Part shown: piece by piece, positions 20,097 to 36,936 of the stretch
Numbering within the stretch: the stretch's first letter is position 1
Layout: every line of letters begins with the position of its first letter
Assembly: GCA_000992325.1 (NCBI GenBank)
Contig: LBTZ01000004.1
Span: 1-43,861 of the forward strand
DNA length: 43,861 nt
From: Parcubacteria group bacterium GW2011_GWD2_38_11
Lineage (GTDB): Bacteria > Patescibacteriota > Minisyncoccia > Moranbacterales > GWC2-37-73
Direction of reading: 5' to 3'
The notes under the pieces: model-generated
What the model was told of the DNA's origin: nothing
Seen by the model: the letters and a program-made list of their open reading frames with translations, nothing else
The model's database searches: none
Translations under genes and position numbers: made by a program

Positions 20097-20200
20097 ACCC
20101 GGTAGTAGAAATTTAAATGAGACACGCTCAAATAAAATTTCTTTACACCCCCAATTAAGATTAAAATACTCCTATCCCATCAATCCCCCGGCACAATAAA

Positions 20201-20257: not shown

Positions 20258-20280
20258 AGGTATTAAACCTTTTGGTATCG

Positions 20281-20343
20281 TCGTTCACTCGGAAATGCTT
20301 GTCTACTGACAATCATTTCGCTCGTTTCACTAGATAATAAATT
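20281..20343 (+). repeat. Element C, copy 1 (left flank of the putative origin)
   Basis: TCGTTCACTCGGAAATG, a stem CTTGTC/GACAAT, CATTTCGCTCGTTTCACT, then AGATAATAAATT. Copy 2 is at 20835-20893 in the same orientation with a different but self-complementary stem. Confidence 0.75.
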
Positions 20344-20345
20344 TT

Positions 20346-20830: not shown

Positions 20831-20834
20831 ATTG

Positions 20835-20893
20835 TCGCTCGCTCGGAAATGAAAGTGCACTTTCATTTCACTCACTCCGCTAAATAATAAATT
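20835..20893 (+). repeat. Element C, copy 2 (right flank of the putative origin)
   Basis: TCGCTCGCTCGGAAATG, a perfect palindromic stem AAAGTGCACTTT, CATTTCACTCACTCCGCT, then AAATAATAAATT. It lies just upstream of rpmH. Confidence 0.75.
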
Positions 20894-20908
20894 AATCAAA
20901 TACATATT

Positions 20909-21043
20909 ATGAAACGCACATATCAACCAAAAAAAGGGAAAAGAAAAAGCCGTCATGGATTTCTTGAGCGTATGAGTACTAAAAATGGAGTTGCCGTAAT
21001 CAAAAGACGCAGACAAGCTGGTCGCAAAAAACTTTCAGTTTAA
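20909..21043 (+). CDS. rpmH: 50S ribosomal protein L34
   Basis: This 44-residue, highly basic protein begins [18 protein letters not shown] and ends [12 protein letters not shown], matching L34 end to end. It is a structural component of the large ribosomal subunit. It is the first gene of the classical rpmH-rnpA-yidC-jag cluster and lies opposite dnaA. The start ATG has no Shine-Dalgarno sequence. Confidence 0.97.
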
Positions 21044-21081
21044 AAAAATATGCCACTTGTATGGCAGTTTGGTAAATATAT

Positions 21082-21423
21082 ATGCTCCCATTCAAACACA
21101 GATTGAAAAAGCGCGAGGATTTTGCCCAAGTATTTTCTAAGGGAGCATATGCCGGATTTGATGGTCTTTCCATTAAGTTCGCAAAAAATTCTTTACCTGT
21201 ATCCAGAATTGGATTTCCTGTCGGTAAAAATTATTCAAAAAAAGCTGTCGTTCGAAATCGTACAAGAAGAATACTTCGAAAAGCTTGCAGCGAATATCTT
21301 GATAAGCTCAAACCTGGCTTTGATATAATCGTCCTTATTAAATCAGATTATCAAAATATTGAACTTTCAAAGGTTATCAGTGAATTACAAAATGTTTTCT
21401 CTAAGGCTAATTTACTCATATAA
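21082..21423 (+). CDS. rnpA: Ribonuclease P protein component
   Basis: RnpA is the protein cofactor of RNase P, which trims the 5' leader of tRNA precursors. It is 113 residues, the normal size. The N-terminal KHRLKKREDFAQVFSKG and the RNA-binding signature NYSKKAVVRNRTRRILRKA are present, followed by the usual GFDIIVLIKSDY strand. It sits 38 bp after rpmH. Confidence 0.96.
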   Translation: MLPFKHRLKKREDFAQVFSKGAYAGFDGLSIKFAKNSLPVSRIGFPVGKNYSKKAVVRNRTRRILRKACSEYLDKLKPGFDIIVLIKSDYQNIELSKVISELQNVFSKANLLI

Positions 21424-21457
21424 TATCCCTTCTTAAGGCGGGATACAAAAAAACAAA

Positions 21458-22186
21458 ATGCTAGCCCTCTTTCATACAGCTATCTACCAACCTTTATACA
21501 ACATTCTTATACTATTTTATAATATTGTTCCTGGTAAGGATTTTGGTATCTCTATCATACTTATTACTATTTTGCTGAGAACTGTTTTGATCCCACTTTA
21601 TAAAAAACAGATTGAATCACAAAAAAAGCTGCAGGAGTTGCAACCAAAGATCAAAGAACTTCAAGAAAGAACCAAGGGAAATAAGGAGCAACAGACCAAG
21701 CAACTGATGGAACTTTATAAGGAGCACAAAACTAATCCTTTTTCTGGCTGCTTGCCTCTTATTGTTCAATTGGTTTTCTTGATTGCTATTTATCAAGTTT
21801 TAATCAAAATTTCAAGCAATGGTCTTGTCGTTGATCCTTCACAACTTTATTCTTTTGTAAAAGACCCTGGCAAAATAAATCAATTCTTTATTTCTTTGGT
21901 TGATTTGACCAAGCCAAGTATTGTTATTGCCGTGCTGGCTGCAATTGCGCAATATTTCCAAACAAAGATGCTGATGGCAAGCCAACCTGTAACTCCTAAA
22001 AAAGATGATTCAGGCCAACCAGATATGGCACAAATTATGAGCAAGCAGATGCTTTATCTTGGACCCTTTCTAACATTATTTATCGGTATTAAGTTTCCAG
22101 CAGGACTATCTCTTTACTGGCTAGCTGGAACATTGTTTATGTTAATACAACAAATTGTTATTGAAAAAAAATCCAAACAAGATTAA
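21458..22186 (+). CDS. yidC: Membrane protein insertase YidC/Oxa1
   Basis: YidC inserts proteins into the cytoplasmic membrane. At 242 residues this is the short Gram-positive-type form without a large periplasmic domain. The first membrane helix is followed by ISIILITILLRTVLIPL with the conserved intramembrane Arg (R41). A charged cytoplasmic hairpin comes next (KLQELQPKIKELQERTKG), then helices with GCLPLIVQLVFLIAIYQVL, and the C-terminal FPAGLSLYWLAGTLFMLIQQ. No lipobox is seen. yidD, often found between rnpA and yidC, is absent here. Confidence 0.95.
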   Translation: MLALFHTAIYQPLYNILILFYNIVPGKDFGISIILITILLRTVLIPLYKKQIESQKKLQELQPKIKELQERTKGNKEQQTKQLMELYKEHKTNPFSGCLPLIVQLVFLIAIYQVLIKISSNGLVVDPSQLYSFVKDPGKINQFFISLVDLTKPSIVIAVLAAIAQYFQTKMLMASQPVTPKKDDSGQPDMAQIMSKQMLYLGPFLTLFIGIKFPAGLSLYWLAGTLFMLIQQIVIEKKSKQD

Positions 22187-22207
22187 TATTTCATTTTATA
22201 TAATCAT

Positions 22208-22681
22208 ATGGACGAAAAAACAACGGCTGTCATAAAAAAAACGATTGAAGAATTGCTCACAAAAATGGGATTTTCCGGAAAAGTTACGCTCATTGAGTCG
22301 ACAGACGAGGATAGTGTCACCTGTGACATCGCAGCAGACAGCGATTCAAATTTTCTTATCGGACAACATGGTGTTAATTTACAAGCATTGCAACATTTGG
22401 CAAGATTGATCGTTAGAAAACACATTCCAGAAAAAATCAGATTTACATTGGACATAAACAATTATAGACAACAGAAAAATCAATCTGTTATAGAACAAGC
22501 TAAAATTGCTGCCAACGAAGCAATCACCCAGGGACGCAGTGTTTTTATGCAACCTATGTCAACTTATGAACGCAGAATTGTTCATATGGAACTTTCTCAA
22601 AACCCGCAAATTTCAACTGAAAGTATCGGTGAGGGAGAAAACAGAAAAGTTGTCATCAAGCCAGCCAATTTGATTGACTAG
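22208..22681 (+). CDS. khpB: KH/R3H RNA-binding protein (Jag/KhpB)
   Basis: This 157-residue protein contains a KH domain with LIGQHGVNLQALQHLARL (GxxG type, about 60-77) and an R3H-type C-terminal part (SVFMQPMSTYERRIVHMEL). The extended N-terminal Jag_N region of Firmicutes proteins is missing. Homologues bind RNA and affect cell-wall synthesis and division. It follows yidC by 21 bp, as in many bacteria, so it is probably cotranscribed with it. Confidence 0.9.
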   Translation: MDEKTTAVIKKTIEELLTKMGFSGKVTLIESTDEDSVTCDIAADSDSNFLIGQHGVNLQALQHLARLIVRKHIPEKIRFTLDINNYRQQKNQSVIEQAKIAANEAITQGRSVFMQPMSTYERRIVHMELSQNPQISTESIGEGENRKVVIKPANLID

Positions 22682-22689
22682 TTTTTATA

Positions 22690-22851
22690 ATGTCATTTCT
22701 ACAAATACAGGACTTACGCACTTTCTCAACTATTTCTTATTTGGCACGCTTTTGGATGAATATTCAATATCCAAAAGCTCAAAGAGTTGCTGTCGCCAAC
22801 TATTGGCCAAAAAATAAATGTTTCGAAACGCGTAACTTCCAAGATAACTAA
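22690..22851 (+). CDS. Possible small protein, 53 residues, overlapping the flippase start
   Basis: An ATG at 22690 opens a frame of 53 residues whose TAA overlaps the next ATG (TAATG, 22849-22853), as in coupled translation. The product is basic and aromatic and contains FSTISYLARFW and KCFETRNFQDN. No family is recognised and no Shine-Dalgarno sequence is visible. It may instead be the remnant of a longer gene. Confidence 0.3.
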   Translation: MSFLQIQDLRTFSTISYLARFWMNIQYPKAQRVAVANYWPKNKCFETRNFQDN

Positions 22852-24266
22852 TGGCAATCGCACGAAAAATTGCTTACAATGTGATTTTTAATGCAATCAC
22901 AAAAATATTATCCACCATTCTTGCGCTGGTAGGGATTGGTTTTATCACGCGTTACCTAGGAAAAGAAGGCTTTGGCGATTATTCTACCGTCTTAGCTTTT
23001 TTTGCTTTTTTCGGCAGTGTGGCAGATCTCGGTCTTTACGCTATCACAGCTAGAGACATTTCAAGAGCTGATGCAGATGAGAAAAAAATTCTTGGCAACG
23101 CCTTTTCCTTGCGATTGATCTCATCTATTGCTGTTTTTCTGGTGACGCCAATTTTAGTCTTCTTCCTGCCTTATTCTCAAGATGTAAAAATTGGTATTCT
23201 TATTGCTGCTGCCTCTTTTGTTTTCTCTTCCACCTATATGGTTCTCAATGGTGTTTTTCAAAAAAATCTTGCTATGGACAAGGTTGCCACTGCTGAAGTT
23301 TTGGGGAAAATAATTCAAATTAGCATTATTATTCTTGCCGTGCGCAATGACCTTGGCTTCATCACCATTATCTTATCCATCCTGGCTGCTATGATTTTCA
23401 ATTTTGCAGTGGTCTTATTATTGGTACAAAAATACATACCACTAAAATTACAATTTGATTTTGTTTATTGGAAAAAATTCCTAAAAGAATCTGCACCGCT
23501 TGGTTTTTCAGCAATTGTGATCTTTGTTTATTTCAAAATAGATACCATTTTACTATCCGTCCTTAAAACAAACGCAGAAGTTGGAATTTATAACGCCGCC
23601 TATAAAGTTATTGAAAACCTCTCATTCTTTCCTGCAATGATTATTGGGCTTATGTTTCCTATGTTTTCGCGTCATATCTTTTCTGACAAAAAACATTTTG
23701 CTCATTTGGCAAATGAAACTATTAAAGTTTTCTTTATTATTATTGTGCCACTCATTATTGGCACCCTTTTTCTTTCAGAAGGAATTATCAATCTTATAGG
23801 AGGCTCGGCTTTCTCGCAGGCTGCTAACACTCTACGAATACTTATTTTTGCACTTGCTTTCATCTTTTTTGGCGGACTGTTTAATAATATTCTTATCGCT
23901 AGCAATAACCAGAAAAAAATGCTTTGGATGTTAATAGGTTGCGCATTATTTAACGTTTCTGCTAATCTTATTTTTATTCCAACTTATTCTTACACCGCTT
24001 CGGCTGTTATTTCAACGATGACGGAGTTTTTGGTTGCTTTCATAGGGCTTGTTCTTACTATAAAATATACAGGCTTTAAACCTTCACCAAAATATCTGCT
24101 GCGCATTTTATTTTCCGGATTTGCAATGGCAATCTTCCTTTTTATTTTCAAATCATACAGTTTTTTAACACTCGTGATTGGAAGTTCTATTTTTTACATT
24201 CTTTTGCTCTGGCTCACCAGAACTATTACCATAAAAGAATTGCGCAGTATTGTGAGTAACAAATAA
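22851..24266 (+). CDS. Wzx-like polysaccharide flippase (MOP superfamily)
   Basis: Members of this family move lipid-linked sugar units across the cytoplasmic membrane. The 471-residue protein has about 12-14 hydrophobic segments and the family N-terminal pattern NVIFNAITKILSTILALVG, ITRYLGKEGFGDYS and SVADLGLYAITARDIS, plus the mid-protein APLGFSAIVIFVYFKIDTILL. It opens a plus-strand cluster with two GT2 glycosyltransferases and two ligase/polymerase-like proteins, consistent with Wzx/Wzy-type export of a surface glycan or glycan for glycosylation. Substrate unknown. Confidence 0.9.
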   Translation: MAIARKIAYNVIFNAITKILSTILALVGIGFITRYLGKEGFGDYSTVLAFFAFFGSVADLGLYAITARDISRADADEKKILGNAFSLRLISSIAVFLVTPILVFFLPYSQDVKIGILIAAASFVFSSTYMVLNGVFQKNLAMDKVATAEVLGKIIQISIIILAVRNDLGFITIILSILAAMIFNFAVVLLLVQKYIPLKLQFDFVYWKKFLKESAPLGFSAIVIFVYFKIDTILLSVLKTNAEVGIYNAAYKVIENLSFFPAMIIGLMFPMFSRHIFSDKKHFAHLANETIKVFFIIIVPLIIGTLFLSEGIINLIGGSAFSQAANTLRILIFALAFIFFGGLFNNILIASNNQKKMLWMLIGCALFNVSANLIFIPTYSYTASAVISTMTEFLVAFIGLVLTIKYTGFKPSPKYLLRILFSGFAMAIFLFIFKSYSFLTLVIGSSIFYILLLWLTRTITIKELRSIVSNK

Positions 24267-24278
24267 AAATCTAAGCAC

Positions 24279-24383
24279 TTGTCATGCCCGCACCCGTTAC
24301 ACGAGCATAAACTCCGGCGGGAATCCAGAACTTCGCCTGAATAGTGCGCGCAGCTGGATTCCGGATCAAGTCCGGAATGACAA
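24279..24383. repeat. REP-like element A, copy 2 (long inverted form)
   Basis: The ends TTGTCATGCC and GGAATGACAA face each other. Inside are GGCGGGAATCCAG and CTGGATTCCGG, then CCGGATCAAGTCCGG. This is an inverted pair of the CTGGATTCC / GGAATGAC palindrome, filling almost the whole gap between the flippase and the first glycosyltransferase and ending 7 bp before its ATG. Confidence 0.85.
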
Positions 24384-24390
24384 AAAAAAT

Positions 24391-25251
24391 ATGAATTCCA
24401 CCTTTCCAAAAATTTTTGTTATCATTCTGAATTTTAATGGCAAGGCCACATTGCCAAATTGCCTTACTTCTGTTTTTCAATCAGATTATTCCAACTTTGA
24501 AATTGTCGTTGTTGATAACAACTCAACAGACGAATCTTTTGAAAAAGCTAAACTTAGTTTTTCACGCTCACATTTCATTAAAAATTCTGAGAATATCGGC
24601 TTTTCAAAGGGCAACAATGTTGGCATTCGCTATGCACTAGAAAAATTTGCGGACTATGTTTTTGTTTTGAACAATGACACTATTTTAGAAAAAACAACTC
24701 TTTCTTCGCTTATACAAACTGCTGAAAAAAATCCACTTGCCGGAATCATAAGCCCGATTATCTTAACTAACAACAATCAAAGTGTTTGGTTTGCTGGTGG
24801 AAAAATACAATGGGGGAAAATGAAAGCTATTCACCTAACTGAAAAAATTTCCGATTCTCCCTATTCTTCAGAATATCTTAGCGGCTGCGCGATGCTTATC
24901 AAAAAAGAGGTTTTTAAAAAAATTGGTCTTTTTGATGAACGCTTTTTTTTGTATTACGAAGATGCTGATTTTTCTCTGCGTTCAAAAAAGGCTGGTTTTG
25001 AATTATTAATAGATCCGACAACCACCATTCAGCACCTGGAACAAAGCGCTGTTAACGATGCAAAAAATTATTGGCTTGTATTATCTGGTCTTTTGTTTTT
25101 TCAAACACACAGCTCTATTTTTTGGAAAGTATGGCTTTTTTGCTATCTTCTACTGCGAAAAACAAAAAATTTTTACAGCATACACATTAAAAAAGATTTT
25201 TCTGCATCAAAAATTCATCAAGCATACAAAGATTTTAAAAAATTATATTAA
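24391..25251 (+). CDS. GT2-family glycosyltransferase (WbbL-like)
   Basis: This inverting GT-A enzyme of 286 residues probably adds a sugar to the lipid-linked glycan at the inner leaflet. Visible are the nucleotide-binding strand FVIILNFNGKATLPNCL, VVVDNNSTD, ENIGFSKGNNVGI, a DxD-equivalent LNNDT and the acceptor-site region GLFDERFFLYYEDADFSLR. The C-terminus has one hydrophobic segment that could touch the membrane. Family similarity is to rhamnosyltransferase-type WbbL proteins, but the donor cannot be told. The start lies directly behind the repeat and has no Shine-Dalgarno sequence. Confidence 0.92.
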   Translation: MNSTFPKIFVIILNFNGKATLPNCLTSVFQSDYSNFEIVVVDNNSTDESFEKAKLSFSRSHFIKNSENIGFSKGNNVGIRYALEKFADYVFVLNNDTILEKTTLSSLIQTAEKNPLAGIISPIILTNNNQSVWFAGGKIQWGKMKAIHLTEKISDSPYSSEYLSGCAMLIKKEVFKKIGLFDERFFLYYEDADFSLRSKKAGFELLIDPTTTIQHLEQSAVNDAKNYWLVLSGLLFFQTHSSIFWKVWLFCYLLLRKTKNFYSIHIKKDFSASKIHQAYKDFKKLY

Positions 25252-25271
25252 ACTAACTCGAGCACTTCTTC

Positions 25272-25383
25272 TTTGTCATTCTCGCGGAGGCGGGTCTTGA
25301 TGCCCCCTGAGGGTGAATCCAGTTTAAAATGAAGGCCTAGATTACCTTTTTCAAGAGAATGGCATAGCGCAGATTAAACTGGC
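25272..25383. repeat. REP-like element A, copy 3 (degenerate)
   Basis: TTTGTCATTCTCGCGGAGGCGGG and GAATCCAG match copy 4. CCAGTTTAA (25319-25327) is complementary to TTAAACTGG (25375-25383). The right end AGAATGGCA is a degraded GGAATGACA. Confidence 0.7.
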
Positions 25384-25417
25384 TCAGTGCTAGAGGTTTA
25401 AATAGTTTTGAAAATTT

Positions 25418-26230
25418 ATGGATATTTCTATTATCATTCCCAATTATAAAAGCGAGCACTATCTTTCTCGTTGCATACAAACAATACAAGCGCATTCTAC
25501 TGGCAGCTTATTTGAAATTATCATCATAAACAATGACACCACGCCGATAACAAGCATCTTGCCAGCTGAAAATGTGCACTTGATTGAAAATGGAATCAAC
25601 GAAGGTTTTGCTAATGCTTGCAATCGTGGAGCCAAAATTGCAAAAGGAGAATTTCTATTCTTTTTAAATCCAGACACTGAAATTGAAAGCGGAAACATCA
25701 CGGATTTATTTGCCGCACTAAAAAACCAATCCACAGGCATAGCTGCACCACAACTCACAATTCCGTCTGGAGAAGAGCAGCAATGGAGCGCGGGCTATGA
25801 AATAAATCTTTGGACTACCATAAAAAACAACTTGGGCTTTATTAAAAGCAAAAAATTATGGAAACAAAATAATATTATTGAAGCAGACTGGGTCAGTGGT
25901 GCAGCCTTTCTTATCAAAAAAACACTCTTTGAAAGCATCTCTGGTTTTGATGAAAAGTTTTTTATGTATTTTGAAGATGTTGATCTTTGCAAAAGAATCA
26001 AGGCAAAAAATTTAAAAGTATTAGTACTACCATCTGTCCGCGTCTTGCATATCGGCGGACAAAGTTTCAAAAATTCTGCTCAACAAAAAAAATATTACTA
26101 TGCATCCCAGGATTATTACTTTAAAAAACATTTTGGAAATTTTTCTTTATTTTTTTTAAAGTTACTGCGAATACCATTTTTATTTTTCAAAAAAAATTGG
26201 TTCTGCTCAATATGTGGTTTTAGAAAATAA
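25418..26230 (+). CDS. GT2-family glycosyltransferase (second copy in the cluster)
   Basis: This 270-residue paralogue of the preceding enzyme has ISIIIPNYKSEHYLSRCI, IIINNDTTP, ENGINEGFANACNRGA, a DxD-equivalent LNPDT and GFDEKFFMYFEDVDLCKRI, with VLHIGGQS near the C-terminus. Divergence from the first copy indicates a different sugar or linkage. Element B copy 2 begins one base after the stop codon. Confidence 0.92.
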   Translation: MDISIIIPNYKSEHYLSRCIQTIQAHSTGSLFEIIIINNDTTPITSILPAENVHLIENGINEGFANACNRGAKIAKGEFLFFLNPDTEIESGNITDLFAALKNQSTGIAAPQLTIPSGEEQQWSAGYEINLWTTIKNNLGFIKSKKLWKQNNIIEADWVSGAAFLIKKTLFESISGFDEKFFMYFEDVDLCKRIKAKNLKVLVLPSVRVLHIGGQSFKNSAQQKKYYYASQDYYFKKHFGNFSLFFLKLLRIPFLFFKKNWFCSICGFRK

Positions 26231-26361
26231 TATATGTTTTTTGTTTCGCCTGTTTTCTCTTGAGAAGCCGCTTCCTGCGAAATAGCAATCAAGAGCGATT
26301 GGCCATAGATTTCGGCCAAGAGCGTGCCGAAAGAGGAAACAGGCGAAACAAAAAACATATA
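26231..26361. repeat. Hairpin element B, copy 2
   Basis: Arms 26231-26261 and 26331-26361 pair over 31 bases with one G-T mismatch. The 69-nt loop shares CAAGAGCGATTGGCCATA and TTTCGGCCAAGAGCGTGCCG with copy 1. The outer arm bases (TATATGTTTTTTGTTTCGCC) are specific to this place. Confidence 0.9.
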
Positions 26362-26404
26362 CCGTGTATGACCCCAAAAAAATTAAATACCTATTTAAAT
26401 ACCA

Positions 26405-27721
26405 ATGCGATTATTCCAAGTTTTAAAATTATTCATAACTGAAAATAATATTTTTTATTATACATTTTTAATCTTTTGCGCCCTTTTGCCTTTTCAATTT
26501 GCGCTTAATCCAAGAGAGGGTTTTGATCTGGCTATTATAAGAGTATTGATTTCACTGGTGTTTTTAGCTTGGATATTTGTTAGCTTAAAAAATAAAGAAA
26601 AAATATTTAAATTAAATTGGACAACTGCCTTATTGGGAATACTGCTTGTTCTTGCGATTATTTCTATTTTATTTTCTCCAAACACTTCTTGGTCGGTGCG
26701 AAAAATTCTTTTTCCGCTTTCTATGGCACCACTTTATTTTTTAGCTGCAAACATTTTAAATAATACACACAAGCAAAAGAAAGCTTTTTTATTTCTTGTC
26801 AGCAGCGCCACTGTCTTAGCTTGGATTGGAATAATTCAGTTTGTTTCTCAATTTATTTTTGGAATTGACAGTGTTTCTCTTTTTTTGTCTACCTATATTG
26901 CACCTTTTTTTCTTGGCAAAACATTTGCAGCTGCAGTTCTTGCTTATCCAAGTTGGCTAATAAATAGCGGCGGGACAACATATATGCGGGCAATTGCAAT
27001 TTTTCCTGATCCTCATATGTTGTCTTATTATCTTGGAATGCTTATTCCTTTTTCTATTGCAATTTGGGCAACAGCCACTTCACACAAAAAATGGCTCCTT
27101 TTTTCAACACTATCCTTGATTATTGCAGATGCTTTGACTTTCACGCGAGGAGGATACGTAGCACTAATAGCGGGAGCAGTTATAGTTTTGCCACTAGTTT
27201 CATTAAAAACTGCGAAAAAAATAATAGCTGGCGCTGGAATTTTTGTTTTTTTATTTATGATTGCCCCACACAATCCAGTGGCTAGTAGATTTTCATCTTC
27301 TTTTGATGTTCAAGAAGGTTCAAACCAAGCACGCCTCTCTAATTGGCAGCAAGCAATTGCAATCATAAAAGATAATCCTTTTGGTGTTGGTATCGGAGCA
27401 TATTCGCTAACGGTAAAACCAGGCACAACTTATCGCGAGCCTATTTATGCTCATAATACATATCTGGATATCACTGCCGAGCTTGGCATTGTTGCTACCG
27501 TTATTTTTATTATGCTTTTATTAATCACAATAAAGAGTTTTTGGATACTATCAAAAACGCAGCCATTTTTTATTGCAGGGGTTGCAAGCATTACTATTTT
27601 TGCAGTTCATTCACTGGTTGAAAATCCATTATATTCAGTACATATTTTACCGCTATTTTTGATAATACTCGCACTAAGCGTTTCAAACCATTCCTATGAA
27701 AAAACTACTGACTCCAATTAA
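26405..27721 (+). CDS. O-antigen ligase/polymerase-like membrane protein (Wzy/WaaL superfamily), 1
   Basis: This 438-residue protein with about 11-12 hydrophobic helices has the O-antigen ligase signature in its large outer loop: GVGIGAYSL, then AHNTYLDITAELG followed by a helix. Such proteins polymerise glycan repeats or transfer them to an acceptor on the outer face of the membrane. Further family stretches are LLPFQFALNPREGFD at the N-terminus and SSFDVQEGSNQARLSNWQQA. The start overlaps no strong ribosome binding site. Its last 26 bp overlap the next gene, so the two are probably translated together. Confidence 0.88.
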   Translation: MRLFQVLKLFITENNIFYYTFLIFCALLPFQFALNPREGFDLAIIRVLISLVFLAWIFVSLKNKEKIFKLNWTTALLGILLVLAIISILFSPNTSWSVRKILFPLSMAPLYFLAANILNNTHKQKKAFLFLVSSATVLAWIGIIQFVSQFIFGIDSVSLFLSTYIAPFFLGKTFAAAVLAYPSWLINSGGTTYMRAIAIFPDPHMLSYYLGMLIPFSIAIWATATSHKKWLLFSTLSLIIADALTFTRGGYVALIAGAVIVLPLVSLKTAKKIIAGAGIFVFLFMIAPHNPVASRFSSSFDVQEGSNQARLSNWQQAIAIIKDNPFGVGIGAYSLTVKPGTTYREPIYAHNTYLDITAELGIVATVIFIMLLLITIKSFWILSKTQPFFIAGVASITIFAVHSLVENPLYSVHILPLFLIILALSVSNHSYEKTTDSN

Positions 27722-29027
27722 TATTTTTTTGTTTGTAATTCTTTGTATACCTCTTTATCTAATTAAAGTGAGCGTTTTTGGATTGCCAACGAACATTCTA
27801 GAATTATTAGCATTATGCGCAACTGTATTAGTTTTTCTTCAAAATAAACAGGCGTTGGCAACTAAGCTGCGCTCCGCTCCTACATTATTTCTTTTTAGTT
27901 CAACACTAGTGATTTTGGGCGTGTCATCTTCAATGCTTTTTAATGATAATCAGATTGCTGGCCTTGGAATCTTAAAAGGTTGGTTTATTATTCCTATGTT
28001 TTTTTCTTTTGCTGTTTATACTATATTAAAATCAGATACTGACATAAAAAAAATCTTTGCAAGTATTTATTTTTCAGCCGCTGTAGTTGCGGCAGTAGCT
28101 ATTTTTTATAAGCTTTTTGGAATTACCACCTATGATAACCGTTTAAGCGCATTTTATTTGTCGCCAAATCAATTGGCAATGTATTTAGCTCCGGGTATTT
28201 TTTTTGGATTATACTTTTTACTAACAGCAATTTTGCAAAAAGATTATTTTAAAAAAATATTCTTACATACCACACTTTTAACAATGATCCTTATTTCGCT
28301 TTATTACACTTATTCCTATGCTGCTTGGTTGGCAGTACTTTTTTCTCTTGCAATAACTTTATTTGTGCAACTTTGTCATTCCCGCGGAGGCGGGAATCCA
28401 GATTCGACACAAATTTTTACCATCTTATCAAGTAAAAAACTTGCTGAGACCAATACGGACTTGATCCGGAATAACAAATTTCTAGGGATCAAAGCAATAT
28501 TTATCGCTGTTTTATTTTTACTTACTTGCTTGCCTATTTTATTTTTTTCTCAAATAAACACGGAAAAATTTTCGACCCTTACCAGTCTTTCCCAGCATTC
28601 TTCCCTTGTTTCACGTATAACAATCTGGAAAGTTTCCACTCAGCTAATTAAGGATAATTTTATTATTGGCATAGGACCAGGCAACTTTCAGCCCTCGTAT
28701 TTAGCAATGCAAAAATATTATCCTCCGTATTTAGAGTGGGCAGTCCCACAGCCGCATAATATCTTTTTGGCTTTCTGGCTGCAAGCTGGATTAATTGGGT
28801 TTGTCGGCTTTTTAGTATTACTCTTTTTTATTTTTAAAACACTCTGGAAATTATTAAAAAACAAAAAAAGCGCAGCTCTCGCCGCACCACTATTTGGTTT
28901 TTTTGTTTATACAATATTGCACGGATTGTTCGATACAACTTATTGGAAAAATGATTTGGCCTTTTTGTTCTGGATTTGTATCTTCTTAATTGTTTTACTT
29001 AGAAATTATTTTTTGAAAATAATTTAG
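27696..29027 (+). CDS. O-antigen ligase/polymerase-like membrane protein, 2, with in-frame REP insertion
   Basis: This 443-residue protein resembles the preceding one: multiple hydrophobic helices and the signature GIGPGNFQPSYLAMQ plus PHNIFLAFWLQAGLIG. Residues about 226-261 (beginning CHSRGGGNPDS) are hydrophilic and encoded by a 107-bp REP-like element that does not break the frame. They fall between a cytoplasm-or-outside loop and the next helix, so the fold may tolerate them. It may be a polymerase with the other acting as ligase, or they may be specific to different acceptors. Last gene of the polysaccharide cluster; its end overlaps the convergent pilin-M15 gene by 4 bp. Confidence 0.87.
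   Translation: MKKLLTPINIFLFVILCIPLYLIKVSVFGLPTNILELLALCATVLVFLQNKQALATKLRSAPTLFLFSSTLVILGVSSSMLFNDNQIAGLGILKGWFIIPMFFSFAVYTILKSDTDIKKIFASIYFSAAVVAAVAIFYKLFGITTYDNRLSAFYLSPNQLAMYLAPGIFFGLYFLLTAILQKDYFKKIFLHTTLLTMILISLYYTYSYAAWLAVLFSLAITLFVQLCHSRGGGNPDSTQIFTILSSKKLAETNTDLIRNNKFLGIKAIFIAVLFLLTCLPILFFSQINTEKFSTLTSLSQHSSLVSRITIWKVSTQLIKDNFIIGIGPGNFQPSYLAMQKYYPPYLEWAVPQPHNIFLAFWLQAGLIGFVGFLVLLFFIFKTLWKLLKNKKSAALAAPLFGFFVYTILHGLFDTTYWKNDLAFLFWICIFLIVLLRNYFLKII
28372..28478. repeat. REP-like element A, copy 4, inside an O-antigen ligase gene
   Basis: TTTGTCATTCC (28372-28382) faces GGAATAACAAA (28468-28478). Inside are CCCGCGGAGGCGGGAATCCAG and CGGACTTGATCCGG, matching copies 2 and 3. The whole 107-bp unit is open in the coding frame. 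Confidence 0.88.
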
Positions 29028-30244
29028 GTATTATTTACATGGAAAGATGGTGCTGTCATAGTTGGATATGGACGACAATAAACTCCAGCTGCATTATATT
29101 TAACGCATCCTGCTGCAGTGTCTTCATATACAGGCTTTAATCCAGCAGATACAATTGCGTCATATAACTTTTTTACCGCTTGCACATCCCCTTTGTTTGT
29201 TTTTAAATTAACATCCGCGCAAGTTCCATTTCCATGACAAGAGCTCGAATGATTAACCGTTACTGGCCAACCCTCCGTTATCCATGCATTTTGCCCTTGT
29301 AAAGCTGTTCGTAATTTTTCTGCCAGTGGCTTATGCAAAGAACAGGGGGATTCTTTACAAATATCAGCCACGGAAACACATTCCTTTTGGCAAATAGTTG
29401 ATCCCTGGGGGTTGCTCGCATCAATATTATCAAATTTAATAGCCACCGGCGTGAAACTCAAATTTATCTTGGTCAGCTCAGGATTAATCACATAGAGGAT
29501 GAGATATGCTCCTAGAGCTGCCACGATGCCCAACAGCGCATCCCAAATGATTCCTCTAGCATTGCCTGCTGTTGATGTATTTCCTGCACTAGCCATATAC
29601 ATAAAGCCGCCTACCACTAGCATAAAGAGTCCTGCTATTCCTACTGTCCAGATTCCAAATTTATATATTGCCAAAATCATTGTTGGAAGATCTGTGAGGA
29701 CTGATCCTGCTTTAAAAAAGCCAGGGAACGATTCAAGGAGGGTGTAGTTGAATTTTTTCGGTTGAGGTTGAGATGACTGTACTGACGCAACAGGCACAGT
29801 TGGAGTTTTTGTAACCTTAGTTGTTCCAAGATTTAATAGATCTGAATAACTATAATAGGCTGTTCCTTGATTTGCACACTGTTGGTTACATGCGTCATCA
29901 TTATTAGTGTCAAACTTACTATCCATAGGATAATAAAAAGGAATCAAACTTCCCTTTACACATAAACAGTTATACAGCCTCCTAAAACCAATATTAGCCA
30001 CATCTGAAAAACTATAGTATTTTGCATTATTAACGCTCATACATGCCTGCTTGCAACTATTTGAATCTGTTACATCATATTCTGCATCTTTATTATATAC
30101 ACCGGGAATTGCACCACCTGAAGAACAAATGCAATTACTGTCTGCTTTTACATTACTCACAAATAAAAAACCACCAAAAAACAATCCTGTCAAAAGAATT
30201 GCAAAAAATATTTTCTTGTTATGTTTTTTTATTTTATTTTTCAT
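29024..30244 (-). CDS. T4SS_pilin-core protein fused to an M15-like zinc peptidase domain
   Basis: This 406-residue exported protein has four parts: a signal peptide (1-34, KKIFFAILLTGLFFGG); two similar Cys-rich units of about 50 residues (37-87 and 92-141, each with CxC, a later Cys pair and YYSxSDxxNxG); a pilin core (163-267) with two membrane helices (about 192-216 and 231-253) joined by SAGNTSTAGNARG; and a C-terminal domain with HxxGxxxD (H337, G340, D344) and a terminal FHVN (H402), the zinc-ligand layout of M15 D,D-peptidases. The M15 general-base Glu is not obvious. I infer a membrane pilin-like subunit bearing a murein peptidase. The core is almost identical to the one in the lysozyme-like fusion upstream. 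Last gene of the operon. Confidence 0.8.
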   Translation of the reverse strand: MKNKIKKHNKKIFFAILLTGLFFGGFLFVSNVKADSNCICSSGGAIPGVYNKDAEYDVTDSNSCKQACMSVNNAKYYSFSDVANIGFRRLYNCLCVKGSLIPFYYPMDSKFDTNNDDACNQQCANQGTAYYSYSDLLNLGTTKVTKTPTVPVASVQSSQPQPKKFNYTLLESFPGFFKAGSVLTDLPTMILAIYKFGIWTVGIAGLFMLVVGGFMYMASAGNTSTAGNARGIIWDALLGIVAALGAYLILYVINPELTKINLSFTPVAIKFDNIDASNPQGSTICQKECVSVADICKESPCSLHKPLAEKLRTALQGQNAWITEGWPVTVNHSSSCHGNGTCADVNLKTNKGDVQAVKKLYDAIVSAGLKPVYEDTAAGCVKYNAAGVYCRPYPTMTAPSFHVNNT

Positions 30245-30270
30245 TTTTAATCTAAACTACCAACTAAACG

Positions 30271-31395
30271 CTACAATTCTAACCGATATAGTTTTTGATC
30301 TATCTTATTTACAAAATAAAGTGCATCTTCTGTGGCGGAAAGAAACATATTACTGGAATCATATTTTCCTTTGATATCAGCGGTCTCAATAATGCGTTCT
30401 TTCTCTCCAGTTGTAATATCCATTTTCCAAAAAGTATCCTCTGTATTAAATTTGTTTTCCTGATAATCATTCGGCATAACTACCCCAGCAGGAATTCCGC
30501 CCGGAAGAGCATAGTATATTGTTTTATTATCCAATGACCAAGCGCATTTAGAAACAAGGGTTGGAATATTAAGCTCTTGATATTTGCCGTCTATCGTAAC
30601 CACTCCAAGTAAAACAGTTTTAGTATCCTTATTTGGCAATGAACTTACAATGGCCTTGCTTCCATCTGGCGACCACAAATAATCAGCACCATATTTTCCA
30701 CTCAAGATTGTTTTTGCTTCTCCCCCCGTTATACTAATCACCTGCAACTGTGTCTCCTCAATGGCATTTGGAGAATTCCAATATGAAATAAGAGATGTGC
30801 TTGGCACTGGAGCAATGTTAAGATTTTTTGCTGTGATGTCGGCAATTTTTTGCCAATCACTACCATCAGGATTAGATATATTCAAAGTTCTTTCTTTGGA
30901 TATGCTATTGAAATATTTGTAGAAAATTTTCGTTCCCAAATTATCCCAAACTACAGTATCCAATCCGTTTTTTAATAACGAACCTGTTTGCGCTTGATGA
31001 TCATAAAAATAAAATGAATTTTGTTCCTCCTTTTGTATTGTCGTCAAAACTTTATTATGATCAGCTGACCACAATGCATTTTTAAGTCCAAGCACTTTTA
31101 CAGTTGTAATCTGCTCTTTTTTTGCACCATCGGAATCCATCTTCCAAACAATTCCAGTAAGTGCATCGTAATATTTAATTTCTTCAGTTTTTTTATCAAC
31201 AATCGGACCAATGACCGCACCGTCACTTATACTTGTGATCTTTTCAGGTTTTATCGGAACGATACTGTTTTTTGTTTCTACGGATGTTGTCTGTATGATC
31301 GCAGGCTCTTCTTTTTTAAATGCAAAATTATAGATGCCCAAAAAAATAAGCACTACCACCAACAAAACTGCCGATATTATAAATATTTTTTTCAT
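30271..31395 (-). CDS. Membrane-anchored beta-propeller-like protein (TolB/WD40-like repeats)
   Basis: This 374-residue protein has an N-terminal anchor (about 4-24) and an extracytoplasmic part with repeated propeller-type blades: NALWSADHNKVL, VVWDNLGTKIFY, YLWSPDGSKAIV, CAWSLDNKTIYY and a last ATEDALYFVNK. The recurrent W(S/D)xDxxK(I/V) is typical of TolB/WD40-like folds, which usually serve as protein-binding scaffolds. It lies between the two pilin-hydrolase genes with gaps of 16 and 26 bp, so it probably works in the same surface complex. No enzyme motif seen. Confidence 0.75.
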   Translation of the reverse strand: MKKIFIISAVLLVVVLIFLGIYNFAFKKEEPAIIQTTSVETKNSIVPIKPEKITSISDGAVIGPIVDKKTEEIKYYDALTGIVWKMDSDGAKKEQITTVKVLGLKNALWSADHNKVLTTIQKEEQNSFYFYDHQAQTGSLLKNGLDTVVWDNLGTKIFYKYFNSISKERTLNISNPDGSDWQKIADITAKNLNIAPVPSTSLISYWNSPNAIEETQLQVISITGGEAKTILSGKYGADYLWSPDGSKAIVSSLPNKDTKTVLLGVVTIDGKYQELNIPTLVSKCAWSLDNKTIYYALPGGIPAGVVMPNDYQENKFNTEDTFWKMDITTGEKERIIETADIKGKYDSSNMFLSATEDALYFVNKIDQKLYRLEL

Positions 31396-31411
31396 TTTTT
31401 GTTTTTATATT

Positions 31412-32527
31412 TTATTTAAAATAACATTTGGATCTTTCATTCGCACCCCATTGCGCCCAGCTATTGCCATCGGCATTATAGATGCTGTTTGCAGTCGCTA
31501 TGTTATTTGAGGTATTTTTAGCCGCAACAACACAGTCTACGTAAAGCTTTGCTGAATAAGAATCATTTTTAACTCGACAACTATGATCTTTAGCGGTGTA
31601 CTGACTAGTAAACGCACTCGGGCACGGCAATCCTCCAATTGGATGTACGGTAATATTTATCTGAAAAAGTCCCCAGGATGCAACACTTCCATCAGCACAT
31701 ATATCAACAGTGCTTGCAATTGATTTTCCATTACTCTCCCCATTACATATACTTGATGCTTCCGTTGCTTTTGATCCAAATGTGCTTGTAAGAGTTGCAA
31801 CACTACATTCTGAAGTTGTTGCTGGCTTACAAACACCAGCAGGTCCCATTGGCGTACCCATAGTTTCAGTTACCTCCACCGGTGTAAAACTCAAATTAAT
31901 TTTCGTCAACTCTGGATTAATCACATAGAGGATTAAATATGCTCCTAGAGCTGCCACGATGCCCAACAGCGCATCCCAAATGATTCCTCTAGCATTGCCT
32001 GCTGTAGATGTGTTTCCTGCACTAGCCATATACATAAAGCCTCCTACTACTAACATAAACAGTCCTGCTATTCCTACTGTCCAGATTCCAAATTTGTATA
32101 TTGCCAGAATCATTGTTGGGAGATCTGTGAGGGTTGATCCTGCTTTAAAAAAACCAGGGAATGATTCGAGGAGGGTGTAATTGAATTTTTTGGTGTTTTG
32201 TGTTGTTGCAGGTGTTTTTGAAAAATTTAAATCTGAGGAATCTAATATAACATCTACACCCTGATCATTTGGTGTTCCGTTGATAATTGCATTGGCATCA
32301 GCTTGCGATTGAATTCCACAATCTCCGGTGGCTGATAAGACTGACTTTCCAGTCGGACATGCACATTTATTATTTATCCAGCTTCCTCCACTTCTCGTAC
32401 AAGCCTGTTGATCTTCTATTGCAAATGCATTACTTATTTTAATTGTTAAAAAACCACCAAAAAACAATCCCGCCAAAAGAATTGCAAAAAATATTTTCTT
32501 GTTATGTTTTTTTATTTTATTTTTCAT
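31412..32527 (-). CDS. T4SS_pilin-core protein fused to a lysozyme/lytic-transglycosylase-like domain
   Basis: This 371-residue exported protein has a signal peptide (1-36), a short Cys-rich stretch (CTRSGGSWINNKCACPTG, about 43-60), a linker, and a two-helix pilin core (113-217) that differs from that of the M15 fusion at one residue. The C-terminal domain (about 233-371) has a likely catalytic Glu (E264 in SICNGESNGKS) and the downstream SWGLFQIN (284-291), the arrangement of Slt/lysozyme-type muramidases; several Cys suggest disulphides. The role inferred is local cutting of peptidoglycan glycan strands around a pilus or secretion channel. Start: ATG 32527, no Shine-Dalgarno sequence, 12 bp after the 1248-residue gene. 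Confidence 0.82.
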   Translation of the reverse strand: MKNKIKKHNKKIFFAILLAGLFFGGFLTIKISNAFAIEDQQACTRSGGSWINNKCACPTGKSVLSATGDCGIQSQADANAIINGTPNDQGVDVILDSSDLNFSKTPATTQNTKKFNYTLLESFPGFFKAGSTLTDLPTMILAIYKFGIWTVGIAGLFMLVVGGFMYMASAGNTSTAGNARGIIWDALLGIVAALGAYLILYVINPELTKINLSFTPVEVTETMGTPMGPAGVCKPATTSECSVATLTSTFGSKATEASSICNGESNGKSIASTVDICADGSVASWGLFQINITVHPIGGLPCPSAFTSQYTAKDHSCRVKNDSYSAKLYVDCVVAAKNTSNNIATANSIYNADGNSWAQWGANERSKCYFK

Positions 32528-32539
32528 TTTTACTAAACA

Positions 32540-35500
32540 TCATTCACTTTCTTTTTTGAAAAGTGTTTCCGGAATAAAGGCAAACAGCAAACCAGTTACC
32601 ATCAACAACAAAACCGAAGTTAAAGAAATTTTAAGCAAGAACATCAACTGCTCCGGCAAATGTGTGATCAAACTAGCACCAAAAAAATTCGCTTTTGATG
32701 CGGCAACAACTTCTCCAGATCCAGCAATAACATCAAGTTGAATGTTGGCATTTTGATTTTCTTCAACAGCCTCTTCCGGCGCTACCCCCCAATTTCTATA
32801 AAGTGCTTTACGAATATTATTAAGTTGATCTTCATTTCCTAGCAAATAGTGAGCACTAAGTCCTATATTGTAGCTTTCACCAGGCATTTTGTCCAAGGGA
32901 AATAATATTTGATTTTGATTTTGGTATTCCGATATTATTTGTCCATCAATCGACCAGTCAAATCCAGCTTGTCCATTTTTCCAGGCTGGATAAAAGGCGG
33001 CTCCCAACATTATAGTCTTACCAGTATTAGCTTCTAAAACCTGCGTGCTATAATCAGGGTATCTATTACCATTTAAATCTTTATAATACCCGAGTAATTT
33101 TGGCCAAACATTTCCATCTGCAGCAATTATCTGTAACTGCGGCTCGATGATAACAAAATGCCTACTGACCTCAATCGGTTCGTTTGTTTTTGTGTCTATA
33201 GCTTTCGCTACCACCTCCACAGCCTCTCCTGGATTACCAAGTATTGGAAAAAACAGAGCATTTCCATTCACCTGAGTGCATTGAGTCTTGGAAACACTAG
33301 CACTACAAGATATTGGGTTACCATTGACCGTCCAAGAAAAAGTACTTCCGCTAAGGTTTGCACCATTTGAATTTGGAACCATAAGCCCCAAGATTTCATT
33401 TTTAGTTACATAACAAGTTGATTTTCCTGCTTGATCACTACAAAGTTCTGTCTCATTGGTATTATTCATTAAAAGATCACCGTCACTTTTAGCAACAACT
33501 TGATACACGCGTATTTCATTTTGCTGCTGCCTGACTCTAACCACAACATCGCCTTGTGCGGACTGACCTCCATCAGCTGCAGTACCATTTATTTTTACAC
33601 GAACCTTCAGATAAAAAACTCCATTATACTTGCTAGGATCCAATAATCCTTTTTTAATAAAATCATCATCCATATTTAAATACACAGCTAATTCTTTTTT
33701 ATCCATACCTATTATAGCGTCTGTAAAAAGAGCACCTGTACTCTCCATACCTGTTGTTATATCAACCCAACTAGTTGTATCAATTGGAGCATCTGAGCCA
33801 TCCCTGCTTTTTTGCACTGACCAGCTATATACAAGGCTATTGGGATCTTTAAGGTTTGATGCATTTGCTGAAACATTTAAAATATCCCCCTTGCCGTTAG
33901 GGTCATTGATTGGATTTTCTGGTGTTGCCACAAGTTCCACTTTTAAGCCCGAAGTGCCATCGTCATCAGGCGTTATTAAATTTTCCTCTAAACAATTATC
34001 CAGGTCGAATTCAGCTGTCAAAAATCCCTTTTTTGTCACACCCGAGCCTTCCACATAAAAACCTACATTATTTTCATCTTTATTTAGTTTATCAAGATCA
34101 CTGCATATACCCTTAGAAAATGCCCAGGTTCTCTTGTTTGTTGAATCTGCATGATCTGTTGATAAAACACTATCTCCCTCCACTACCACACCAATTTGAT
34201 CTCCAGGTGAAAACATCCAGCTAAATTTATCCACGCCCAAACCGATGACGGCCTCTTCATCCTTTTGTATTCCATTCGTGGAAATTTTTGCCGGATCAGC
34301 ACCCCAGAATTTCTTTTCTGCTAATGTAAATTTTCCATCACCCGTCATTTCTCCTGGAACTTTTGCAAAAAGATGTTTACACATATTAGCACCTCGCTTA
34401 AAGCCACAGGTTGGCTTAAGTGTCGAATTTCCATTTACACTATCTGTCATACTATTTTTTGTAGTAACACATAATTGCCCTTCAATAGTGGAAAAGATTT
34501 TGTTTTTTTCATTTAAAAATTCCGGCACAGGTGATGATATTGTTGTGTTTAAGGGTGTTGGCTTGAAAATATATTGGCAAATATTCGCATTATCACTACT
34601 TGTAATAGGGAGAGAGGGAGCAAAAATTACGCCTTTAGCCGGGTTACTATCCGAAGCATTTTCTGGAAAAATAGTATTGCCCGTATTTTTCACACATACA
34701 GCAGTCTGGTCATCCGCGCGACAATCAATCTCTGTTTTATAATTTTTAAGATCAGTTACTTTACATTTTTGCAGACTTTCATTAATATTTTTGTCTGAAC
34801 TTATTTCTGTGTCAACACATATACTGCCAATATTTTCTGTAACTAACTTACTGATTGTATATGCCGCAGGCGGCGTTGCCGCTGCCGCAATATTTGCGGC
34901 AAGTTGATCATAGGAAGGATTAAGCACACCACAAGTGCTAGCCGTAAGTGTGGTTGCACAACTACGATGATAACCATCTGGACAACTATCAAAAATTGGC
35001 TCAACTTTTCTCAATTCATAATCAAGACCTGACTCTCCTTCGCGTACATAACAATTTGGAGCATCATCTTTATTTTCCTCCTCTCCAGAATTTATTTTCC
35101 ACTCATTATCAGAAACCACTGGAGATGGCCAAGCTTTATATCCAGCCACATTCTCGTTAATAGCTGATATATAGTCAGCTCCACCCTGATCAAATCTTTT
35201 TCCAACAATAATGCGCGTGGCTGCTATCTTCCAATCATTTTCGGTTATTTTATTATCATCATCAAGGTCACATTTGGCTTTAAGATTCACATCATTAATA
35301 ACATTTTTTTTATTTTCACACCCTTCTCTTTTTAAATACCAAGTAAAATATAATTTTTTTGGATCAGAGGTTTCATTAAAAAAACCAGGAATTGCAGTTG
35401 CTGTTATTGTTGAACCCGCCTGGAAAGAACTTCCTGAAAAATTAACAGCTACCGATGGACTTGGTTGCTTATTTATTAAACTACCAGCGTTGTCAGCACC

Positions 35501-36286
35501 GTTTAAAATGTCAGTATCCATCGGATTAATATTTATATCGGGTGTTTGTCCGGCATCCCGTGAATCATTTATAGCATCGCTCAAGTCTCCAAAAGTGAGT
35601 AGCGCATCAGGATCGGTGGTGGTGCTTTTAGTAAAACCCCCATCAGCCTTAAGTATTGATAACACATTATTTATGCATGCCAAATCTCCTCCACATGCTT
35701 CCAGCGCATTATTTGCCCTTGTCTTGTCTAAACCATTATCTGTTATTTTTTCATTTGTTACTATTTTAAGGGCATTTATAATTTTATTATTATAGCCATC
35801 AGCAATAGCTTTTTCACAAGCATTTACAGCGGTACAATTATTTGCAATTCGACAATCCTGAACACTAGTAATATCTACAGCATTATTACACTTAACTATC
35901 CCATTACAAAATCCGAGAGCAGGACTTGTCCCTGTATTTATAACACTAGAAGGATCAAGCGCAGTATCAGAACAGGTTGCAGGCGTTACTGTTGGTGCTG
36001 CCCATCCTGTTAAGGCTCCAAACTCATCATACAAAGGAGTGCCTACTGGTGCTGTATAACTAGCATACAAAAAAGAACCAGCAGCAGGTGGAGCAGCAGG
36101 AGCGGGTGGCTCAATATTAACAAATGGAAAATGGTATACTGCTATATTATTTCCACTTACTACCACATTTTTATCTGTATCATATGCAGTTCCTGACGCA
36201 AAAACGGCTAACGGGCTTGCTATGAAAATAATTTCCATAAATAACGCCACCATTTTCAAATATTTTTTATTTTTTGTTTTTTGCAT
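32540..36286 (-). CDS. Very large exported Cys-rich surface protein with Ig/PKD-like modules and EF-hand-like loops
   Basis: This 1248-residue protein has a signal peptide (1-31, ending VFASG) and a C-terminal membrane helix (about 1217-1239) with a short charged tail, so nearly all of it is outside. Regions containing TWYLKREG (about 316), YSWSVQ (about 820), FSWTVNG and FDWSIDG look like repeated Ig/PKD-type beta domains. Two loops resemble calcium-binding EF-hand/dockerin motifs: DLDDDNKITENDW (340-352) and GDGKFTLAEKKFW (649-661). More than 20 Cys occur, mostly in the N-terminal two thirds. No family recognised as a whole. It precedes the pilin fusions in the operon and could be the scaffold or adhesin of the apparatus. 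Confidence 0.78.
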   Translation of the reverse strand: MQKTKNKKYLKMVALFMEIIFIASPLAVFASGTAYDTDKNVVVSGNNIAVYHFPFVNIEPPAPAAPPAAGSFLYASYTAPVGTPLYDEFGALTGWAAPTVTPATCSDTALDPSSVINTGTSPALGFCNGIVKCNNAVDITSVQDCRIANNCTAVNACEKAIADGYNNKIINALKIVTNEKITDNGLDKTRANNALEACGGDLACINNVLSILKADGGFTKSTTTDPDALLTFGDLSDAINDSRDAGQTPDININPMDTDILNGADNAGSLINKQPSPSVAVNFSGSSFQAGSTITATAIPGFFNETSDPKKLYFTWYLKREGCENKKNVINDVNLKAKCDLDDDNKITENDWKIAATRIIVGKRFDQGGADYISAINENVAGYKAWPSPVVSDNEWKINSGEEENKDDAPNCYVREGESGLDYELRKVEPIFDSCPDGYHRSCATTLTASTCGVLNPSYDQLAANIAAAATPPAAYTISKLVTENIGSICVDTEISSDKNINESLQKCKVTDLKNYKTEIDCRADDQTAVCVKNTGNTIFPENASDSNPAKGVIFAPSLPITSSDNANICQYIFKPTPLNTTISSPVPEFLNEKNKIFSTIEGQLCVTTKNSMTDSVNGNSTLKPTCGFKRGANMCKHLFAKVPGEMTGDGKFTLAEKKFWGADPAKISTNGIQKDEEAVIGLGVDKFSWMFSPGDQIGVVVEGDSVLSTDHADSTNKRTWAFSKGICSDLDKLNKDENNVGFYVEGSGVTKKGFLTAEFDLDNCLEENLITPDDDGTSGLKVELVATPENPINDPNGKGDILNVSANASNLKDPNSLVYSWSVQKSRDGSDAPIDTTSWVDITTGMESTGALFTDAIIGMDKKELAVYLNMDDDFIKKGLLDPSKYNGVFYLKVRVKINGTAADGGQSAQGDVVVRVRQQQNEIRVYQVVAKSDGDLLMNNTNETELCSDQAGKSTCYVTKNEILGLMVPNSNGANLSGSTFSWTVNGNPISCSASVSKTQCTQVNGNALFFPILGNPGEAVEVVAKAIDTKTNEPIEVSRHFVIIEPQLQIIAADGNVWPKLLGYYKDLNGNRYPDYSTQVLEANTGKTIMLGAAFYPAWKNGQAGFDWSIDGQIISEYQNQNQILFPLDKMPGESYNIGLSAHYLLGNEDQLNNIRKALYRNWGVAPEEAVEENQNANIQLDVIAGSGEVVAASKANFFGASLITHLPEQLMFLLKISLTSVLLLMVTGLLFAFIPETLFKKESE

Positions 36287-36291: not shown

Positions 36292-36936
36292 TTATTTTAC
36301 AGTTAAAGCAATAAAAGTCGAATCAATTATAATAATGAAAAATAATTGTCCAAAAAAAGAATAGGATAACGAATTACTTTTATATGCAATCCAGCCTGCA
36401 AAAGGGTTAAATACTAAATATGTTACATAAAACCAATAAGGTAAATTCAAAAATAACATCAAAACTATAAAAAACAAAAATTGTATTACAATTGCCCATT
36501 TCCCTAAAAAAGTAGAAAAATAAAACATCACAAATCCCCTAAAAAAAAGTTCATACATAGTAACAGTAAAAGCAACGCCCGTAAATTCATATAATAAAAA
36601 CTGCTTAAAATCCGTTTTTACAAGTATCGACAATAAATAGTGATTCCCAATATCTGTATATTTAAAAAGAATAGCCATTATTAAAAAAGAACAGAATAAA
36701 CCAATCATTAAATACAATAAATTCTTTTTCCAATCACCAATTAAAATATTTTTTAAAATATTTTCTTTTTTTAAAAATAAGTTATTATATAAAAATGGAA
36801 GTGCAACTAAAAATATCAAAGCTACAAATTTATATTGAAAATATCCATTAGCTGGAAAAAAAACATAACCCGCCAAACAAAATAATATAAAAATACTTGT
36901 AACCGCTTGCTGCTTATTTATTTTAATATTTTTCAT
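36292..36936 (-). CDS. CPBP-like multi-pass membrane protein (CAAX-protease family)
   Basis: This 214-residue protein with about six hydrophobic helices carries TMYELFFRGFVMF (about 125-137), resembling motif 1 of CPBP membrane proteases (EExxxR), although the first Glu is Tyr. The second and third motifs (FxxxH, HxxxN/D) are not evident: positions near LNLPYWFYVTYLVFNPFAG lack a His. It may be inactive or merely related. It is the first gene of the pilin operon, 5 bp before the large surface protein. Such proteins sometimes accompany exported peptides, but a role here is inferred only from position. Confidence 0.6.
   Translation of the reverse strand: MKNIKINKQQAVTSIFILFCLAGYVFFPANGYFQYKFVALIFLVALPFLYNNLFLKKENILKNILIGDWKKNLLYLMIGLFCSFLIMAILFKYTDIGNHYLLSILVKTDFKQFLLYEFTGVAFTVTMYELFFRGFVMFYFSTFLGKWAIVIQFLFFIVLMLFLNLPYWFYVTYLVFNPFAGWIAYKSNSLSYSFFGQLFFIIIIDSTFIALTVK

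Follow-up and report, generated by a model that had tools for sequence, protein, structure and literature searches.

Predicted wall hydrolases on a shared VirB2-like core as putative type IV secretion system subunits in a Moranbacterales genome

In a 43,861-nucleotide stretch (hereafter the window; contig LBTZ01000004.1, positions 1 to 43,861) from Parcubacteria group bacterium GW2011_GWD2_38_11, two minus-strand genes encode exported proteins in which nearly the same membrane core carries two different, predicted peptidoglycan-hydrolase domains. P0003 (371 amino acids, 31412..32527) comprises a leader, a variable N-part, a VirB2-like core and a lysozyme-like tip, and P0001 (406 amino acids, 29024..30244) comprises a leader, a Cys-rich N-part, a VirB2-like core and a Hedgehog/MepA-type peptidase tip. 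With a probability of roughly 0.6, the two proteins belong to the type IV secretion system (T4SS) encoded on the chromosome of this Patescibacterium, as VirB2-like membrane subunits that bear hydrolase tips and have a role like that of VirB1. This reading is based on the domain layout, the predicted folds, the catalytic-type residues, the concerted evolution of the core and the operon place in relatives, from which the putative T4SS association derives; from these we infer catalysis, co-assembly and the cell's own wall as the substrate. Throughout, the order and the class are Moranbacterales and Minisyncoccia, the lineage of the source organism; its closest relatives with a name are Candidatus Moraniibacteriota genomes, which places it in the Moranbacteria/Moraniibacteriota group.

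Shared core and unrelated tips

The sequence-only reading of the window had described two exported proteins with the same leader and two-helix core, and the open reading frames, the core alignment and the AlphaFold models all bear this out. The core (residues 163–267 of P0001, 29444..29758; residues 113–217 of P0003, 31877..32191; minus strand, like all features of the two proteins given below) is identical at 104 of 105 amino acids (BLASTP E = 2e-73), and the leaders (residues 1–27) are nearly identical; outside these segments, both the remaining N-parts and the C-terminal tips are unrelated. The differences between the two cores at the DNA level are mainly synonymous (synonymous divergence, dS, 0.35; non-synonymous divergence, dN, 0.013), and the likeness has therefore been maintained and is not due to chance. 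In both AlphaFold models the core is a hairpin of two long helices joined by a short loop, located at 136–168 and 173–203 in the AF2 model of P0003, and hydropathy agrees with two long hydrophobic helices.

The core is named VirB2-like because its orthologues pass the Pfam family T4SS_pilin (PF18895), though the window copies score under the cut-off; the earlier assignment to T4SS_pilin/VirB2-like subunits is accordingly supported through the homologues and not through the window copies themselves. A homologue with a core about 51% identical (L073) reaches 32.9 bits, over the cut-off of 26.6, and at E ≤ 0.01 the family matches 45 of a set of 63 core proteins drawn almost wholly from the order and 48 of 49 from the class; TrbC/VirB2 is a further match for four of these class proteins. 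The core profile gave no match against the PDB.

Structure prediction, which had been proposed as a check on both tips, gave confident models (pLDDT, the predicted local distance difference test, mostly 90–98), with predicted folds that are lysozyme-like in P0003 and Hedgehog/MepA-type in P0001; the fold assignments of both tips rest on VIA re-alignment. The tip of P0003 (residues 235–371, 31415..31825) contains the muramidase-like residues reported earlier, E264 and SWGLFQIN, at positions 264 and 284–291. Its model matches hen lysozyme (1mel_L; Z 8.1 over 103 residues) and duck lysozyme (Z 7.7, about 100 residues), which supports a lysozyme-like fold; in the same re-alignment, the Z of 8.1 is not above that of unrelated hairpin rows aligning to the core. 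The Glu at the E264 position is invariant in 10 aligned lysozyme-like tips, where G-L-F/Y-Q is also conserved, and by its motif P0003 apparently has a Ser at what we take to be the position of the second carboxylate of hen lysozyme. The predicted fold, the conserved Glu and the S-x-G-L-F-Q-I-N motif are shared with SLT_3 (PF18896) and with C-type and goose-type lysozymes, but, unlike SLT_3 members, the window copy scores under the Pfam cut-off (9.8 bits, cut-off 27); L073 passes it with 29.0 bits and is thus over the cut-offs of both SLT_3 and T4SS_pilin. Against the PDB, the lysozyme-tip profile found only an endolysin at E 0.1 and chance matches to RNase A through the Cys pattern, and phmmer searches with P0001 and P0003 singly returned no relevant match.

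For the tip of P0001 (residues 274–406, 29027..29425), an M15-like zinc peptidase had been proposed. The zinc motif HxxGxxxD (H337-x6-D344, 29213..29236) and the third, near-terminal ligand H402 (29039–29041) are in place, and the assignment is refined to the Hedgehog/MepA branch; Pfam gave no M15 match for P0001. The model aligns with Hedgehog N-domains at Z 9.8 (root-mean-square deviation 2.4, 103 residues) and with the murein endopeptidase MepA at Z 8.1–8.2 over 126–130 residues, and the family profile of the tip matches the Sonic hedgehog (Shh) N-domain by sequence (E 0.002). The tip is therefore called Hedgehog/MepA-type by its predicted fold, closest to that M15/LAS branch, a label that assigns no family membership. 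In the aligned Hedgehog-type tips, HxxGxxxD is invariant, the near-terminal His is nearly so (L069 lacks it), and the Glu corresponding to E374 is conserved in nearly all; judging from the motif, we equate E374 with E177 of Shh (PMC6027127). In its H-x6-D, near-terminal His ligands, preceding conserved Glu and predicted fold, the tip resembles Hedgehog, the bacterial Hh-DD-peptidases and MepA (LAS), and it is unlike them in sitting on a VirB2-like core, in having an extra loop of ~20–25 residues ahead of the last His and in the replacement of H-x-H by S-F-H. This S-F-H forms the last ligand in the window and in most relatives, and H-x-H, as in DD-peptidases, occurs only in L087.

Core evolution and tip repertoire

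Within-genome identity of the cores is 85–100% in nearly all multi-copy genomes, the copies cluster by genome in the core tree in all multi-copy genomes tested (9/9), and a single clade of cores with SLT_3 (lysozyme-type) tips is rejected (approximately unbiased test, p about 1e-6). Between sister species, cores bearing the same tip differ by a dS of about 1 and a dN of about 0.09 (compared with 0.35 and 0.013 for the paralogous cores of the window), and the tips are mostly 70–78% identical, with only 43% for one lysozyme tip (G003). Cores are thus homogenised inside each genome and tips persist. The likeness within genomes is explained by gene conversion of the core or by repeated transfer of tips to local cores, of which conversion is favoured because the gene positions are conserved. 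Such clustering by genome would be expected of two proteins that fit into a single machine.

A search of genomes of the candidate phyla radiation for the same core with other C-terminal domains had been proposed as a check, and in related genomes the core does occur with many other tips. Tips that are not enzymes, often rich in Cys, and cores lacking any tip are seen chiefly outside the order. Enzyme-type tips were found on 61 of 78 uncut order-level core proteins (14 SLT, 12 Hedgehog-type, 9 SLT_3, 8 M15C, 7 M15E, 6 M15D, 3 VanY-like, 1 C39 and 1 CHAP/DUF2272), the others being nine bare cores and eight cores with other tips. M15C, M15D and M15E are working labels given by motif; since the M15C profile had no match in the PDB, this tip type rests on its motifs and on the match between the M15C and M15D profiles (92.8% probability). 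The same pair as in the window recurs within the class in a different order (G245), where a core with an SLT_3 tip adjoins a core with a Hedgehog-type tip, and the combination of core and SLT_3 is also present in another class (G493). Enzyme tips are a special feature, and the predominant one in Moranbacteria.

Assemblies of relatives break or carry N/X runs inside the near-identical cores (L042, L043, L053–L055, L076 and L112–L114), and the contig breaks inside the core in G002, G005 and G015–G018 are most simply explained by misassembly of near-identical repeats. Because of such breaks, core-tip genes are likely under-reported in draft genomes. In addition, a second core protein at 6791–7789 of L108 has a tip resembling a decayed M15C, with the active-site His positions lost, alongside an intact copy.

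Gene order and the T4SS

Where the sequence-only reading could only infer a link to the T4SS, the gene order of relatives shows one. In eight genomes from other families of the order, VirB4 lies 4.0–5.2 kilobases (kb) upstream of the core on the same strand, with a giant gene, and mostly a gene for a CPBP protease as well, between VirB4 and the core, and with a propeller gene after the core. In seven genomes of the class, an enzyme-tipped core lies just downstream of VirB4, and PrgI and VirB6 lie farther upstream in most; the typical class order is VirB6-PrgI-VirB4-x-(core and tip)-propeller, with dnaA often coming next. To avoid picked examples, frequencies were taken from an evenly drawn class sample of VirB4 loci with at least 3.5 kb downstream (n = 38), which replaced a first class-level set biased to long open reading frames. 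A core protein was present within 6 kb downstream of VirB4 at 33 of these 38 loci, usually ahead of the propeller, so that in this class the core is a constant part of the T4SS operon. Three or four of the evenly drawn loci have enzyme tips, eight have bare cores and the rest have mostly Cys-rich or other tips; among three M15C matches in this set, two are independent of the profile and one (L196) depends on it. The core was rare at 20 VirB4 loci from other classes.

In the genome of the window, VirB4, PrgI (VirB3), a VirB6-like protein and several T4SS_pilins are encoded on another contig (C6), and the simplest account of the window block is that VirB4 moved away and the downstream half of the T4SS operon stayed behind near dnaA. 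The block is a co-directional minus-strand run with intergenic gaps of 5 to 26 bases. It opens with a CPBP/Rce1-like membrane protease (36292..36936; PF02517 at 20.6 bits, just under the cut-off) and continues with P0004 (1248 amino acids, exported, one C-terminal transmembrane helix; 32540..36286), P0003, the membrane-anchored beta-propeller protein P0002 (30271..31395; a conserved neighbour with weak TolB/Dpp5 matches) and P0001. The two predicted enzymes thus belong to one operon, as had been proposed, with the refinement that the propeller gene stands between them. P0004, conserved across the order as a Cys-containing, single-helix protein directly ahead of the core proteins, gave no match in Pfam and PDB sequence searches and is a possible new T4SS component. 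Across the class, the propeller gene neighbours VirB4 and the core, and it stays beside VirB4 at loci without a core (G050, G059 and G078); the propeller protein may therefore be a T4SS component in its own right.

The N-part of P0001 contains two tandem Cys-rich repeats of ~55 residues each (about residues 35–146; 29807..30142), which would be extracellular if the topology is right; Cys-rich N-parts were seen again in sister species. On the other side of P0001, the region 17444–29027 carries dnaN, dnaA, rnpA, yidC and jag, and then a flippase, glycosyltransferases and two O-antigen-ligase-like genes; the final gene runs towards P0001, and the ends of the two overlap by four bases.

Proposed role and alternatives

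In the mechanism proposed here, Sec would export P0001 and P0003, and the two-helix hairpin would insert in the membrane with the N- and C-terminal ends both facing outward. The near-identical core would bring both proteins into the same inner-membrane assembly of the T4SS, where the lysozyme-like tip may cut the glycan strand and the Hedgehog/MepA-type zinc tip the peptide. The wall would thereby be opened at the passage of the channel, a task that VirB1, or in monoderm T4SSs the two-domain TraG/PrgK, performs elsewhere and that would here be shifted to a pilin-like subunit. Similar to VirB1 and to TraG (pIP501) and PrgK (pCF10), which are T4SS-tied wall hydrolases, anchored in the monoderm cases, the window pair would combine a glycosidase or transglycosylase with a peptidase or amidase (PMC12857230, PMC12102498). 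Unlike TraG and PrgK, whose hydrolase domains lie in one anchored protein, the predicted activities of the window are on separate proteins with a common core, and unlike in all three systems, a VirB2-like two-helix core serves as the anchor and the lineages differ in their enzyme families. The fusion of a wall enzyme to a membrane core had been considered unusual in itself; because T4SS hydrolases of monoderms are usually membrane-anchored (PMC12857230), the unusual point is the pilin-like anchor and not the anchoring. No SLT (PF01464) match was found anywhere in the window's own genome, and P0001 and P0003 may therefore act like VirB1 and yet not be classed as VirB1; among relatives, 12 core proteins carry SLT.

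The two proteins also resemble the T4SS_pilin (PF18895)/VirB2 arrays of Patescibacteria in the two-helix core, the signal sequence and the location near virB4 in relatives. However, the published arrays consist of divergent pilins (mean 25%, maximum 54% identity), with enzyme tips unmentioned (PMC12102498), whereas the cores described here are near-identical within genomes and bear unrelated enzyme tips. Pilin-hydrolase fusions were found described nowhere in full-text literature searches; as far as we could find, all parts are of known kinds and the arrangement is new. The neighbouring Pfam accession numbers of T4SS_pilin and SLT_3 suggest that curators had met such a protein, a lead from the numbering only.

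Several observations weigh against the T4SS-subunit reading. The window cores score only 10.5 and 11.3 bits for T4SS_pilin; the two-helix hairpin resembles many unrelated structures, and its fold therefore does not identify the core; and Foldseek alone, with the full models against the PDB, gave no significant match (none with E below 0.001). In the window's own family VirB4 sits at a separate locus, so that proximity to the T4SS is seen in relatives and not in the window. In other orders, the corresponding place in the operon is taken by bare cores or by cores with Cys-rich tips, and hydrolysis is therefore not the universal job of the core. Moreover, two further, separate proteins, one LysM-CHAP and one RlpA-like, are encoded on the VirB4 contig of the genome, and P0001 and P0003 are thus not its only wall enzymes.

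The strongest rival, in our view unlikely, is that the cores polymerise, or else cap a pilus built from the other VirB2-like pilins, and that hydrolases along the filament or at its tip attack the host wall. The grouping of the core with T4SS_pilin, the array of separate T4SS_pilin proteins in the same genome and the essential role of pilins in the epibiotic growth of Southlakia epibionticum (PMC10633639) favour it, the variation of tips among genomes would be expected of a host-facing part, and homogenised cores are compatible with co-polymerisation; but polymerisation of this core is purely hypothetical, a 15-kDa enzyme on each subunit would be bulky, and in most genomes such genes number only one to three. 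It is a similarly speculative thought that an armed T4SS filament or channel, with swappable wall-cutting tips on homogenised cores, bores through the host wall, the tips being matched to host peptidoglycan. General wall housekeeping by enzymes for which the core is merely a handy membrane anchor, with no tie to the T4SS, would suit the position of the window block beside polysaccharide-export genes and dnaA, away from VirB4; it is improbable given the fixed VirB4 neighbourhood in the eight order genomes and at 33 of 38 class loci, and such anchors would not need homogenised paralogues.

Loss of catalysis is a separate matter: the tips could be degenerate binding modules, that is, adhesins that hold glycan or peptide without cutting it. 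Animal Hedgehog, which has the same fold, is of disputed peptidase activity (PMC6027127), a ligand is lost in some tips (e.g., L069), and Cys-rich tips take the same place in other orders; nevertheless, the invariance of the lysozyme-like Glu and of HxxGxxxD, and the near-invariance of the terminal His, together with the joining of several unrelated hydrolase families to one core, make this quite improbable. Hardly any credence is given to a phage-derived fusion of the holin-endolysin type, despite the two-helix hydrophobic segment with a lysin-like domain and a sub-threshold holin match in one relative (E 0.03), as the genes hold a stable chromosomal site by VirB4 and dnaA across the class. 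This origin was dropped: there was no PHROG match below E 0.05, no close relative in viral contigs and nothing significant in a BFVD fold search.

The T4SS is nearly universal in Patescibacteria, and its pilins are essential in one genetically tractable species (PMC12102498, PMC10633639). Most Patescibacteria genomes with VirB2 lack VirB1, and the essential genes of Southlakia epibionticum include those of a peptidase and a lysozyme located downstream of virB4 (PMC12102498). As hydrolase-tipped, VirB2-like T4SS subunits, P0001 and P0003 are candidates for the missing wall-cutting component, built onto a pilin-like subunit, and they offer specific residues and proteins for deciding between opening of the cell's own wall and that of the host. 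Furthermore, the exchange of unrelated hydrolases on one conserved, homogenised core shows the modular evolution of a secretion machine with unusual clarity.

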